From NCBI GenBank assembly GCA_016203265.1, contig JACQNB010000075.1:1-11100 (forward strand): a stretch of DNA of 11,100 bases, written 5' to 3'. A model generated the notes under the pieces. That model saw only the letters and a program-made list of their open reading frames with translations. It made no database searches and was not told where the DNA came from. Numbering within the stretch: position 1 is the stretch's first letter; the number at the start of each line of letters is the position of its first letter. The position numbers were made by a program, and so were the translations under genes. This stretch comes from Candidatus Woesearchaeota archaeon (GTDB lineage: Archaea; Nanobdellota; Nanobdellia; Woesearchaeales; ARS49). Positions 3,644 through 11,100 of this stretch are shown here, one piece after another.

Positions 3644-4055
3644 GGTTGGTCTTTCTTCCGGCGGCAATATCCTCAAGAATCGCCTTATCGTCCCACATCA
3701 ATTCAAGATGGCGAATTTCTTCGATGGAATGCAGTCCCAACCCATCGCCTTCCTTTTGCTGTTTGCGTAATTGATCGAGCTGAATGGTCAAAGGCGCGAC
3801 AAAGACAAACAATTCACGGGAAGGCCCCCCATCCGGAGATTGGGCAACCGTGTATCTGCCGAAAAACTGAGGAATGAGGGAAATCTGCAATTCCTCATGC
3901 GCTTCACGTATGACTGCCTTTTCCGGTGTTTCTCCTTGTTCGATGCCACCGCCAAAGAAGCCCCACATGTTCGGGCGATATTTTGGATGAGCATCCCGAT
4001 GCTGCAAAAGCATGCGTTTCTCTTGAATGAGCGTAAAAATGGCGATTCTGCGCAT
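3615..4055 (-). CDS. Nudix hydrolase
   Basis: A 146-aa single-domain Nudix protein hydrolysing a nucleoside-diphosphate-linked (NDP-X) compound; the exact substrate cannot be told. The Nudix box is complete except for one position: G36-x5-E42-x7-R50-E51-x-x-E54-E55-x-Q57-I58, with Gln where the consensus has Gly. The W-x-F-F-G-G-G approach to the box is typical of MutT-like members. The ATG at 4055 is preferred because it overlaps the stop of the Kazal gene as TGATG, a classic translational coupling; a GTG two codons upstream is possible. It is the last gene of the three-gene minus operon starting at 4674. Its 3' end overlaps the convergent MBL gene by 29 bp. Confidence 0.85.
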   Translation of the reverse strand: MRRIAIFTLIQEKRMLLQHRDAHPKYRPNMWGFFGGGIEQGETPEKAVIREAHEELQISLIPQFFGRYTVAQSPDGGPSRELFVFVAPLTIQLDQLRKQQKEGDGLGLHSIEEIRHLELMWDDKAILEDIAAGRKTNLKDLQPPTQ

Positions 4056-4261
4056 CAACACTCGCCTTCTCTGTACGTTACTTTAGCACAACCGGCAAAA
4101 CAAGAATTACTATAAGTCTTTCCGTCACTCCCGCACACCGGAGCATAATTCGCGGTGCAGATGCAGCTCGGGCCTTCTTCGCCGCCGGAAACAGGAGCTT
4201 CAGAAGGCGGGGTTGTACACGCAATCAAGAATAACAACAGGAACAGCAGCGTTCGTCTCAT
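4055..4261 (-). CDS. Kazal-type protease inhibitor, small exported lipoprotein
   Basis: A 68-aa protein. Residues 1-14 form a signal peptide (M-R-R, Leu/Phe-rich core) and L-I-A-C15 resembles a lipobox. A Thr/Pro/Ser linker follows, and residues 33-68 form one Kazal domain: C33-I-C35, Y-A-P-V-C43-G-S-D-G-K-T-Y-S-N-S-C54, C58 and terminal C68, the six cysteines expected for three disulfides. Canonical Kazal domains block serine proteases through the reactive loop between the second and third cysteines. Here it would be displayed on the outer face of the membrane. The ATG overlaps the stop of the 138-aa gene (ATGA), and its own stop overlaps the Nudix ATG. Some Kazal-like domains act as structural modules, so inhibition is an inference. 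Confidence 0.8.
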   Translation of the reverse strand: MRRTLLFLLLFLIACTTPPSEAPVSGGEEGPSCICTANYAPVCGSDGKTYSNSCFAGCAKVTYREGEC

Positions 4262-7229: not shown

Positions 7230-7598
7230 ATGTACCTCATTGAACTTCATTATCGTCCGCATGAGCAATTGAAACGACTTGCAGGAGGCTTAGGCAAATA
7301 TGAATTCGTGATTCCTTTACGACAACTTACCAGGGCAAGAAAAAAAGCAATTGAACTACCACATATTAATGCATACCTTCATGATGATAAACCTTCTGAA
7401 TTAGAAAAAGAATTACTTGTTTTCTACCGCGGCGTCGTCATCGCCATTCCAACAGTCGATAATTTATGTGCTACTCCTCTCGAAAGTTATCGCAGAAAAG
7501 GCTGGCCTGGACTTAAACTGCATTCAGATGATCATTTTGCTTTGCGTTATGCGGCAGATAAACTAGGCGGCTTACCTACGGACAAAACAGAAAAATAG
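7230..7598 (+). CDS. Hypothetical protein, 122 aa, AT-rich
   Basis: Not recognised. The protein is basic, with His-rich patches at the start (H-Y-R-P-H), an R-Q-L-T-R-A-R-K-K-A helix near 31-40 and an S-D-D-H-F-A-L-R-Y-A-A-D-K stretch near the end. No signal peptide or membrane helix is visible. Codon choice differs from the neighbours: many A/T-ending codons (TTA, ATT, CCT, GAA), against the G/C-ending codons of polX on one side and the 188-aa gene on the other. This suggests recent acquisition or relaxed selection. It has its own TATA box at the leaderless distance, which supports a real gene despite the unknown family. Confidence 0.65.
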   Translation: MYLIELHYRPHEQLKRLAGGLGKYEFVIPLRQLTRARKKAIELPHINAYLHDDKPSELEKELLVFYRGVVIAIPTVDNLCATPLESYRRKGWPGLKLHSDDHFALRYAADKLGGLPTDKTEK

Positions 7599-8607: not shown

Positions 8608-8680
8608 GGAGTCGTCGTCCAACCTGGTAGGACGACCGCCTCCAGAGCGGTTAATCGGGGTTCAAATCCCTGCGACTCCA
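8608..8680 (+). tRNA. trnW: tRNA-Trp (anticodon CCA), intronless
   Basis: A 73-nt cloverleaf with all stems closed. Acceptor GGAGTCG pairs with CGACTCC plus discriminator A. D stem GTCC/GGAC carries the AACCTGGTA loop. Anticodon stem ACCGC/GCGGT carries loop CTCCAGA, which places CCA at 34-36. The variable loop is TAAT. T stem CGGGG/CCCTG, with one G-T pair, carries loop TTCAAAT. CCA is not encoded. There is no intron, whereas tRNA-Trp in many archaea carries one. The 3' end touches the stop codon of the convergent glycosyltransferase gene (8681-8683) with no spacer. Confidence 0.95.
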
Positions 8681-10126
8681 TCAAGCGTAGGCACTCGTAA
8701 CGTCTTTGTGAAGGGTAGGAATATGACGGTGTTTCTGCGCGGTCGCTAACTTGATAATGGGCATCACCCACCACATCTCGAGGGCAATCCACGCCGTGTT
8801 TATCGCCCAATTCGCGGATGGGCCATGCTGGAACACATTCAGAAAAATTCCGACAACGCCTGCGCCGAGCACTATCATTTGGGGCAGCACGTGCTTCAGG
8901 CGTCTCCCCGCACGTTCAATTTTCTCGGTCACGCGATAAGGTCTCTTTTTGGGATGCAATGCCAGAAAAACCGCACCAAGATAGACTGGCCACATCGACA
9001 CCCAAAATTGATTGTTCTCACTTCCGTGGTTGAGCCAGCTATAGAACCAGACGACCGCAAGTAAGCCGGGCAACCGGATGAACAAGTAATCGTATCCTGC
9101 ATTGACAACGGAATAGTTGAGCAGCAACGAAACGGCAGGCATGATGAACAGGATAGGAATGAACACGCCTGACACAAGATAGTGGTAGGTCATTTCGAGA
9201 TAATGGAGCCGTTGATGCACAGAAAGACCTTTTGCGAACAATGGATTTTTCCTGAAAAAGATGCGTAATGAATCAGCAGCCCAGGTGCCGCGTTGTTTGT
9301 AGATGTTCTTGATGTCTTGCGGAGCAAGTCCGGTCGTATATGGCTTGTTCACATAGACACTTTTCAGTCCGCGCTTGTGCAGCTCATAGGAGGTGGTAAG
9401 ATCCTCGACAAGGTTCCACGTGACGAATCCGCCAATCTTCTCGAGCGCGGCACGACGGTAAATGACTCCGCTACCGCAACTGATGGGGCATCCTTTCTTG
9501 TTCTTCCCTGCCTGCATGTGCTCGTAGAACAGATGGTCATGGTTGAAATCGCGGTCGTGCACATCAAAACGCTGGCGCGTCGTGACAAATGCGACCGCAG
9601 GTTCCTCAAAATAGCCCATCAACTCCTTCAAAATCTCGGAGTCAGGAACTTGATCTGCGTCCAGCGTGAGCACAAAGGGAGATGCGCTCTGCTGCAAGCC
9701 ATAATTCAGGTTGCCCGCTTTTGCGTGTTCGCGAGAGGGACGGGAAAGATACTGCACGCCCAAACCACGCGCCAGTTTGCGAAGCTCTTCACGATTACCA
9801 TCGTCAAGCAAATAGACCTGTTTCAGGGGATAATCAATAACGCTTGCGCCATAAAGGGTTTTGCCAATCATCCCTATGGGTTCGTTGTAGCACGTAACAA
9901 AAACATCGACGGTTGGAAGCGCGCCTTGGGCGGGTTTTGTCCGATAATTGTATTCACGATCCCAATGACAAAGGAGAAAAAGCAAGGTCATCGAGAAGAG
10001 TCCCCATTCTCCGATACTGAAGATGATCCCAACAAGACCATTCACGCGCGGGAAGACCCACAACAAGTAGACAAGATTAAGTGCGATAACAACAAGGAGG
10101 GCTCTGCGAATGTTCAACAGACCCAC
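8681..10126 (-). CDS. Membrane GT2 glycosyltransferase (BcsA/cellulose-synthase-like)
   Basis: A 481-aa processive-type family 2 glycosyltransferase. Two N-terminal membrane helices (about 8-25 and 30-53) precede the GT-A domain: V-D-V-F-V-T-C-Y-N-E-P, L-L-D108-D109-G-N, L-D156-A-D158, then L-V-E241-D242-L, the catalytic base region. At the usual Q-x-x-R-W site it reads Q278-R-G-T281-W282. Four or more helices follow (about 315-445), with a basic loop between. It would transfer a sugar from a nucleotide-sugar at the inner face of the membrane and may extrude a polymer. The polymer is unknown. The start is a GTG at 10126, the first usable start after an in-frame stop; a weak TATA (CTTTATCG, 10142-10149) lies only about 20 bp away, so a TTG at 10117 or co-transcription with the regulator are alternatives. 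Confidence 0.88.
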   Translation of the reverse strand: MGLLNIRRALLVVIALNLVYLLWVFPRVNGLVGIIFSIGEWGLFSMTLLFLLCHWDREYNYRTKPAQGALPTVDVFVTCYNEPIGMIGKTLYGASVIDYPLKQVYLLDDGNREELRKLARGLGVQYLSRPSREHAKAGNLNYGLQQSASPFVLTLDADQVPDSEILKELMGYFEEPAVAFVTTRQRFDVHDRDFNHDHLFYEHMQAGKNKKGCPISCGSGVIYRRAALEKIGGFVTWNLVEDLTTSYELHKRGLKSVYVNKPYTTGLAPQDIKNIYKQRGTWAADSLRIFFRKNPLFAKGLSVHQRLHYLEMTYHYLVSGVFIPILFIMPAVSLLLNYSVVNAGYDYLFIRLPGLLAVVWFYSWLNHGSENNQFWVSMWPVYLGAVFLALHPKKRPYRVTEKIERAGRRLKHVLPQMIVLGAGVVGIFLNVFQHGPSANWAINTAWIALEMWWVMPIIKLATAQKHRHIPTLHKDVTSAYA

Positions 10127-10157
10127 CGTTCGCGAGATGTACGATAAAGATCACTTG

Positions 10158-10355
10158 TCATATCGGATAAAGCTGCTGCGTGCCTGGTTTTTTGACGATT
10201 TTGATGAGTTTGAAGTATGCAAGACTTTCGCAATGCTCTTTCAGCGAACGGGGATTGGTGCCAATCTTACGCTCGAGTTGGCTCATCGTGATGCCAGGCA
10301 CCTTCTTGATGACCTCATAAATAACGCGTTGCACGTGGAGGCTCTTCCGCTTCAT
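10158..10355 (-). CDS. Small winged-helix DNA-binding regulator
   Basis: A 65-aa protein consisting of just one winged helix-turn-helix. A first helix (about 5-18) is followed by T-M-S-Q-L-E-R-K-I-G and the recognition helix N-P-R-S-L-K-E-H-C-E-S-L, then a two-strand wing (K-L-I-K-I-V-K-K-P-G-T-Q-Q-L-Y). Basic residues dominate. The ATG at 10355 lies 25.5 bp from the TATA centre (10377-10384). Two similar palindromes flank that TATA box, so the protein probably binds them and represses its own gene and perhaps the divergent zinc-ribbon gene. It lies 31 bp upstream of the glycosyltransferase and may control it through read-through. The ligand or signal is unknown. Confidence 0.8.
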   Translation of the reverse strand: MKRKSLHVQRVIYEVIKKVPGITMSQLERKIGTNPRSLKEHCESLAYFKLIKIVKKPGTQQLYPI

Positions 10356-10356
10356 G

Positions 10357-10370
10357 CTACATTATCGTAG
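10357..10370. promoter_or_regulatory. Operator 1 (imperfect palindrome)
   Basis: CTACATTATCGTAG lies between the TATA box and the start codon of the winged-helix gene, where a bound protein would block RNA polymerase. It matches operator 2 at 12 of 14 positions, with identical CTAC/GTAG arms. Confidence 0.6.
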
Positions 10371-10376
10371 AAATGT

Positions 10377-10410
10377 TTATATAGCAATATGCTACAATAT
10401 TGTAGTATAA
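10377..10410. promoter_or_regulatory. Divergent promoter pair: winged helix / mini zinc ribbon
   Basis: The minus-strand TATA CTATATAA (10377-10384) serves the regulator start at 10355. The plus-strand TATA-like TAGTATAA (10403-10410) is 26.5 bp before the ATG at 10433. TATA centres are 26 bp apart and starts 78 bp apart, as at the other two divergent pairs in the window. The plus-strand box is the weaker call. Confidence 0.6.
10392..10405. promoter_or_regulatory. Operator 2 (perfect 14-bp palindrome)
   Basis: CTACAATATTGTAG is fully self-complementary. It sits just upstream of the regulator's BRE and overlaps the first bases of the plus-strand TATA-like box. The centre-to-centre distance to operator 1 is 35 bp. 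Confidence 0.65.
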
Positions 10411-10423
10411 CTGAACACGCCGA

Positions 10424-10519
10424 ATGAAGAACATGCTGACAAAAACCTGTCTGAACTGCAAAAAACTGAACACGATAGAACGCATCCAGTGCCTGCATTG
10501 CGGCGCTTGGCTTCTGTAA
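10424..10519 (+). CDS. Mini zinc ribbon, 31 aa (28 aa from the second Met)
   Basis: A very small open frame encoding two C-x-x-C knuckles, C-L-N-C and C-L-H-C, separated by ten residues, enough for one zinc ribbon. The second ATG at 10433 is favoured because a TATA-like box is centred 26.5 bp before it, and because it reproduces the 78-bp start-to-start spacing of the other divergent promoters. It is divergent from the winged-helix gene and shares operator 2, so it may be co-regulated and could be a protein partner or rubredoxin-like metal module. Its size makes the call uncertain; the paired cysteines and the promoter are the support. Confidence 0.5.
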   Translation: MKNMLTKTCLNCKKLNTIERIQCLHCGAWLL

Positions 10520-10532
10520 CTTCTGGAAGTGA

Positions 10533-10784
10533 ATGATGACGAAGCGATGGTTGGATGCTTTGATGATTCCTTCTTTAGTGCACAGTATCCAGTGGTGCCT
10601 CCGCATGAATAGGGATCCTTTGATTGATGAGGAGTTCGGGGACATATGGAACGCCTGCAAAAAATTCACGTTGACGTCGAAGGAACGAGGTTACGCACTC
10701 TATAAATCAGTCGAATATGTCATCAAAAATGATGTCCAAGGAGACTTTATTGAATGTGGCGTTTGGAAAGAGGGAGTGTCATGA
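10533..10784 (+). pseudogene. TylF/MycF-type O-methyltransferase, N-terminal part, frameshifted
   Basis: Residues about 25-80 of this frame match the start of the TylF (macrocin O-methyltransferase) family: D-P-L-I-D-E-E-F, then F-T-L-T-S-K-E-R-x-Y-A-L-Y-K-S-V-E-Y-V-I, then G-D-F-I-E-C-G-V-W-K, the SAM-binding entry. The frame then stops (TGA at 10782), whereas relatives continue G-G-S. Stepping back one base at about 10767-10772 gives R-G-S-V-M and continues with I-W-I-Y-D-T-F-N-G-M, the next family motif. A single missing base therefore splits the motif. The catalytic remainder (about 120 residues in full-length relatives) is absent, being replaced by a MazG-like domain. An ATG at 10605 is the family-like start; 10533 lies 13 bp after the zinc-ribbon gene. 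Confidence 0.7.
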
Positions 10785-11100
10785 TTATCATGAAAACATT
10801 GCTTGCATTCGGCGTAAAAGACAGGCAGATATGGATTTATGACACGTTCAATGGCATGACGACAAAGGCAGGATGCCTTGAAAAAGGCATGTTAAACATC
10901 ACCATAGAAGAAGTGATGAAAAAGGTCTTAGAAGAAATCACGGAATTAGGGGAGGCATTTGAAGATAGAAGTCAAGATTCGGCGCATTTTCGTGAAGAAA
11001 TAGGTGACGTCTTTTTCGTTTTGGTGAATTTAGCCAGGCACGCGGGAATTGATCCTGAGACTTTAGTAAAAGAAAACGTACGAAAGTATCTCAAAAGATG
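10754..11100 (+). CDS. TylF fragment fused to MazG-like NTP pyrophosphohydrolase (partial, runs off the edge)
   Basis: This frame is open from just after a stop at 10751 to the window edge. It has ATGs at 10754, 10781 and 10790. The first part (10769 to about 10860) is the continuation of the TylF-type motif (I-W-I-Y-D-T-F-N-G-M). From about 10889, itself an ATG, it reads as an all-alpha MazG-type domain: L-E-E-I-T-E supplies E-E-x-x-E, R-E-E-I-G-D supplies E-x-x-D, then V-L-V-N-L-A-R-H-A-G-I-D-P-E-T, typical of the end of the domain. MazG enzymes hydrolyse nucleoside triphosphates to monophosphate and pyrophosphate, often cleaning non-canonical nucleotides. No TATA box sits at the right distance before 10889, so the MazG part may depend on the upstream remnant for expression. 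The end lies outside the window, probably only a few codons away. Confidence 0.7.
   Translation, partial: MWRLERGSVMIIMKTLLAFGVKDRQIWIYDTFNGMTTKAGCLEKGMLNITIEEVMKKVLEEITELGEAFEDRSQDSAHFREEIGDVFFVLVNLARHAGIDPETLVKENVRKYLKR

Follow-up and report, generated by a model that had tools for sequence, protein, structure and literature searches.

The window, a stretch of 11,100 nucleotides of DNA from a Candidatus Woesearchaeota archaeon, ends in an open reading frame that joins the beginning of a TylF-type O-methyltransferase to a MazG nucleotide pyrophosphohydrolase domain. Our comparisons suggest that this join is probably a chimeric contig tip, an artefact of assembly or library preparation, rather than a two-part enzyme, and that one TylF gene very likely spans the break between the contig that ends here (C27) and a second contig (C39) of the same draft genome. 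The window corresponds to the whole of contig C27 (11100 of 11100 bases) in draft genome G000, which consists of 646,027 bases in 99 contigs, is 74.39% complete and has a low estimated contamination (0.16). The TylF–MazG finding is confined to the last 500 or so bases of C27, and the contig stops at position 11100, beyond which the preliminary description had recommended an extension. The features considered below are the following:

8681..10126, minus strand: neighbouring family-2 glycosyltransferase, cellulose-synthase-like (PF13641, E 1.9e-25; PF03552, E 9.7e-20)
10605..10769, plus strand: N-terminal part of TylF, as far as the GDFIECGVWK motif (PF05711, 27.5 bits, profile 67-105, in the frame 10533-10784)
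10764..10775, plus strand: approximate place of a one-base frame change inside TylF (PF05711 match switching frames; direct sequence reading)
10772..10861, plus strand: TylF continuation in the shifted frame, up to YDTFNGMT (identity to relatives; alignment with the TylF of genome G011)
10862..10903, plus strand: 42 bases at the join, like neither TylF nor MazG relatives (2 of 14 residues, 37-50, identical to protein P0002)
10904..11098, plus strand: MazG nucleotide pyrophosphohydrolase domain, apparently lacking its N-terminal end and interrupted by the end of the contig (PF03819, 40.2 bits; 59 of 65 residues identical to P0002)
11100..11100, no strand: end of contig C27 (C27 = 11100 bases)

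A TylF-type start and a frame change at the end of contig C27

The preliminary description had read a TylF-type start with the motif GDFIECGVWK, broken by a single-base frame change, and profile searches bear this out. The frame 10533-10784 matched PF05711 with 27.5 bits (E 2.3e-6, profile 67-105) and the frame 10754-11098 with 25.6 bits (E 8.6e-6, from profile 102), both over the family cut-off of 23; without its first 12 residues the second match drops to 16.6 bits, below the cut-off. Since the second frame matches the profile from position 102, the TylF domain crosses from one frame to the other at approximately 10764-10775. The YDTFNGM motif reported for the other frame was likewise present, at 10838-10858, and TylF sequence can be aligned only until approximately 10861. 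The gene begins at 10605, unless one of the earlier in-frame starts from 10533 onward is used.

For comparison, 126 proteins were used, namely 120 listed of 8000 TylF relatives (one evidently that of G011, a genome from the same family of organisms with an intact TylF) and the six matches of a search with the fused frame. The five best-scoring proteins were 64-71% identical to the N-terminal part (10605..10769) over 54-57 residues, and the seven best-scoring ones, excluding the window's own, were 60-67% identical to the continuation (10772..10861) over 29-30 residues. A complete SAM-binding and catalytic TylF domain is not found in one frame, given the frame change, the end of alignable sequence near 10861 and the location of the C-terminal part on C39. 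As both TylF frames and the MazG domain exceed their Pfam cut-offs, the homology to the two families is not a chance resemblance.

The MazG part and the join

The shifted frame runs, as first described, without a stop into a MazG-like domain, with EEITE at 10931-10945 and EEIGD at 10994-11008, and remains open to the contig end. The frame 10754-11098 matched PF03819 with 40.2 bits (E 4.3e-10, cut-off 22), and the metal-binding motifs EExxE and ExxD of the MazG pyrophosphohydrolases are kept, with residues E60, E61, E64, E82 and D85 invariant in an alignment with five relatives. The nearest relative, P0002, is a 153-residue Logan protein encoded on a 7089-base Logan contig, and the protein search aligned it to the fused frame with 81% identity over 65% of the query. 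In an ungapped comparison, 59 of 65 residues were identical from residue 51 (base 10904) of the 115-residue frame, and before this residue identity collapsed to 2 of 14 (residues 37-50) and 2 of 36 (the residues before). Moreover, a GFD[WF] motif stands just before this point in all five nearest MazG relatives and is missing from the C27 frame, and the MazG piece therefore looks truncated. GFD[WF] is absent also from the more distant MazG ORFs of G011 and of G001, a genome of the same genus as G000; judged from these sequences, it is a mark of the nearest-relative subgroup only. The C27 piece thus differs from the MazG pyrophosphohydrolases closest to it (PF03819) in that it does not hold a full-length domain with their N-terminal region, GFD[WF] being absent and the C-terminus lying beyond the contig end.

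Several origins of the MazG piece were considered. A copy from elsewhere in the draft genome was discarded, as no second PF03819 match (E ≤ 0.001) and no second P0002-like match (E ≤ 10) was found there. A viral origin was likewise set aside, with no relative among the viral contigs and four phage matches, all weak. One of these, H3, matched the frame from residue 26 onward and might therefore have held part of the TylF end; the matched stretch had only MazG-type Pfam matches over the cut-off and lay inside a 352-residue MazG ORF, and H3 was rejected as a relative of the fusion.

The join can be refined to the 42 bases between approximately 10861, the end of alignable TylF, and 10904, the start of similarity to the nearest MazG relative. 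Both genes look broken at this join, and the filler between them appears to resemble neither. A repeated element was rejected as the source of the filler: with three mismatches allowed, 24 of its bases recurred at no other place in the draft genome, and a second copy was found for neither of two short patterns searched. Between the last 500 bases of C27 and either C39 or the rest of C27, no word of 14 or 16 bases was shared, and one of 12. A perfect hairpin with a 7-bp stem and a 4-base loop lies inside the filler (10873-10890); it is one of five such hairpins (7-bp stem, loop of 3-8) in C27, and the fold at the join is of modest stability (z -2.14, with 7 of 200 shuffles equally good).

A TylF C-terminal part at the edge of a second contig

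A PF05711 search of the draft genome at E ≤ 0.001 returned two matches on C27 (profile 68-129 and 102-161), one on C39 (3107-3343, minus strand, profile 177-258) and no further one. Contig C39 has 3348 bases; at its edge the TylF frame is open, and from there it extends for 88 residues to a stop codon, with no stop or frame change in these 88 codons. This part scores 59.5 bits against PF05711, and it ends at the usual C-terminus of the family, residues 1-88 aligning to 158-246 of the 246-residue P0032. When aligned to the intact TylF of G011, the two C27 parts and the C39 part cover separate regions of it, with identities of 36, 47 and 53%. In all of the 120 relatives examined (the best 120 of 8000, one evidently G011's own), the gap between the C27 and C39 parts measures 50-55 residues, with a median of 53; in an intact gene, approximately 150-165 bases would therefore lie unseen between them.

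PF05711 is uncommon among the relatives of G000: in a set of 57 genomes (G000 and 56 relatives) it was detected in three at E ≤ 0.001 and in two over the cut-off, G000 being counted both times, and a second complementary TylF half present by chance is thus unlikely. A close intact copy of the G000 gene was not found in other assemblies, the best-scoring proteins among the 126 compared being 71% identical to the N-terminal part and 63% to the C-terminal part; the highest identity to the C39 part apart from itself was 65%, among the best 120 of 753 relatives. We infer that the C27 and C39 parts belong to one gene, the middle 50-55 residues of which lie on neither contig. The parts resemble the TylF/MycF/NovP-type O-methyltransferases (PF05711) in that they match the start and the end of the family over the cut-off, whereas the G000 gene is split over two contigs, with approximately 50-55 residues unseen, and carries a one-base frame change.

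Gene order in a genome of the same genus

Fourteen ORFs of C27 and two of C39 were compared with the whole 138.5-kb contig C4 of G001; a further G001 stretch and single stretches of G011 and G028 were included. Eleven of the 14 C27 ORFs had collinear matches at 86.8-96.7 kb of G001:C4, and ten of these also agreed in orientation; the glycosyltransferase, a small ORF at 10158-10355 and ORF 7230-7598 had no match in that contig. Both C39 ORFs matched it at 99.7-102.8 kb, with the TylF edge of C39 turned toward the right end of C27, and the counterparts of the two contigs therefore lie 3 kb apart on a single G001 contig. Furthermore, the large C39 protein found its best match outside G000, 55% identical, at this same place in G001 (28 genomes searched). 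From this gene order, C27 and C39 most likely adjoin in the genome, the TylF start on C27 being directed into the TylF end on C39. G001 itself gave no PF05711 match in the profile search of the 57 genomes; between its C27-like and C39-like blocks it has other ORFs, including a SelR-domain protein and an amino-acid permease.

The stretch that differs between these two genomes of one genus is edged by a tRNA-Trp gene and covers positions 8608-10861 of the window in C27 and L080:16656-19695 in G001. It holds the glycosyltransferase, the small ORF and TylF in C27, and the SelR-domain protein, an ORF with no Pfam match and the amino-acid permease in G001, with the tRNA-Trp on opposite strands in G000 and G001; this arrangement suggests a site of turnover beside the tRNA. 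Within the collinear block, the Lon-like ORF 716-2371 (PF05362 Lon proteolytic domain, E 1.5e-11) forms a single-gene inversion, its orientation with respect to the adjoining genes being reversed in G001. ORF 7230-7598, unmatched in this otherwise collinear block, encodes 122 residues with no Pfam match at E ≤ 0.01 and has a third-position G+C of 0.28, compared with 0.49-0.79 in the other 13 C27 ORFs measured; it is perhaps a recent arrival. A Kazal-type serine protease inhibitor domain (PF00050, E 1e-9) was recognized in the 68-residue protein encoded at 4055-4261; a protein of this kind would not be expected of a genome this small, and the G001 counterpart is 61% identical over 41 residues.

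Search for the fusion in other genomes

The preliminary description had presented the joined domains as a possible new architecture and proposed a search for the same fusion in related genomes and protein databases, which gave no backing to that view. The fused frame matched G000 alone among 371 genomes of the phylum (E ≤ 1e-6). In a large collection it yielded 12 candidates that resolved into six proteins, one being the window's own and the other five MazG proteins without TylF. The 12 loci recovered from genome_contigs all matched only from residue 50 or later, viral_contigs gave no match, and the only one of the four weak phage matches to begin ahead of the MazG part was H3, the ordinary MazG protein described above. 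Among the 57 genomes, three matched at E ≤ 0.001: G000 itself, G040 through the MazG part and G011 through the TylF part. PF03819 was detected in 27 of the 57, on the same contig as a PF05711 match only in G000, and was absent from the best 120 of 8000 and the best 120 of 753 TylF relatives. One candidate, P0116 (one of 120 TylF relatives), was rejected: its EEIGD followed by V, L, I or A stands at residue 40 of a TylF protein and is not MazG. A conserved TylF–MazG fusion was thus found in no independent genome searched.

YabN-type proteins consist of a tetrapyrrole methylase joined to MazG, and one relative recovered from the large collection, P0003, is named as such. They resemble the C27 frame in having a methylase domain in front of MazG; unlike them, the C27 frame has only half a TylF domain, and the YabN methylase belongs to another fold class than TylF. 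The literature search found nothing on MazG with TylF or on MazG with a tetrapyrrole methylase, and YabN was not named among the matches listed.

Explanations for the join

Of the three readings offered in the preliminary description, chimeric assembly is the best supported, by the C39 part, the G001 gene order and the sharp break in MazG similarity, although it falls short of proof. A simple deletion fusion with loss of the TylF end is unlikely, since that end is kept on C39, where it is open for 88 codons to its normal terminus and adjoins C27 by gene order. Plain decay of a gene donating its promoter to MazG is unlikely on the same grounds.

For a chimeric tip speaks the position of the TylF start and end, both at contig edges, complementary, and facing each other by G001 order. 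An artefact is also favoured because the odd stretch occupies the last 340 bases of the contig, about a read or two in length, and because two broken genes are joined there with a frame change in the same stretch. On the other side stand the low estimated contamination of the draft genome and the fact that GFD[WF] is not universal in MazG. The GUNC paper (PMC8201837) describes misassemblies as relatively rare, which also counts against an artefact. The join is, moreover, in frame and stop-free; one join in three is expected to be in frame by chance, and this feature alone is consequently weak evidence. The 239-base tip has a G+C content of 0.397, both TylF parts have 0.416 and the rest of C27 has 0.528 (10 of 530 windows as low), and the low value shared by tip and TylF is explained equally well by one low-G+C island and by a tip of foreign origin. 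The 42-base filler and the lack of a shared 14-base word with C39 or the rest of C27 mean that this is not a classical shared-word misassembly. We infer that neither the MazG join nor the frame change exists in the real DNA and that both arose during assembly or library preparation.

The main rival is a real rearrangement, broken to broken, in which a segment with a truncated MazG gene interrupts TylF, either in this strain or in part of the strains of the population, and the remainder of TylF follows on C39; the methyltransferase gene would then be a pseudogene, and MazG would be expressed at most from the TylF promoter or from its own ATG at 10889. We regard this as the less likely course of events, though one to be taken seriously. 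An insert between C27 and C39 would agree just as well with the gene order and with the TylF parts facing each other, low G+C is common to MazG and TylF, the filler and its hairpin resemble a scar of illegitimate recombination, and contigs often break at strain-variable sites. However, an inserted gene is usually complete, and this MazG piece is without the N-terminal motif of its five nearest relatives; moreover, no second copy of the filler was found in the draft genome, and the C39 part of the supposed pseudogene is free of stops and frame changes over 88 codons.

Two separate and unrelated TylF genes, of which the one on C27 is decaying and the other lies on C39, would agree with a middle region found on neither contig, so that continuity is not directly seen, and with a draft genome that is only 74.39% complete. 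Nevertheless, the rarity of TylF in the clade, the lack of overlap between the parts and the gene order that makes the contigs neighbours render this highly improbable, and the C39 part is cut at the contig edge, whereas the C27 part stops 240 bases from its own. There is equally little to be expected of a real deletion fusion expressed as a functional chimeric protein: no stop interrupts its frame between 10754 and the end of the contig, and the EEITE and EEIGD motifs are intact, but the rest of TylF is not lost and is apparently adjacent, the TylF remnant would comprise no more than the beginning of the SAM-binding fold, itself interrupted by a frame change, the MazG N-terminal region is unlike that of the nearest relatives, and the architecture was seen in no other genome or protein searched. 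It is just as far-fetched that illegitimate recombination at the variable tRNA-Trp locus placed a truncated MazG under the methyltransferase promoter, giving a short TylF–MazG chimera from an inner start codon.

Implications

Under the chimeric-tip explanation, a single TylF-type O-methyltransferase gene in the variable stretch next to tRNA-Trp would be split between C27 and C39, the assembly having broken inside it. The last 240 or so bases of C27, filler and MazG together, would be a chimeric tip derived from another place in this genome or in the sample. The one-base frame change shortly before it would be an error of this same weakly supported contig end. A real join would amount to one more gene-breaking rearrangement, of modest interest. 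The case illustrates that the tip of a contig can mimic a new two-domain enzyme when the draft genome is fragmented, and it provides a test that needs no reads, in which the missing half is sought at other contig edges and the gene order of a relative is used. With a chimeric tip, the organism would have no fused protein, and the gene would make an ordinary SAM-dependent O-methyltransferase. From its family and its glycosyltransferase neighbour alone, this enzyme perhaps methylates a sugar of a surface glycan made by that glycosyltransferase.
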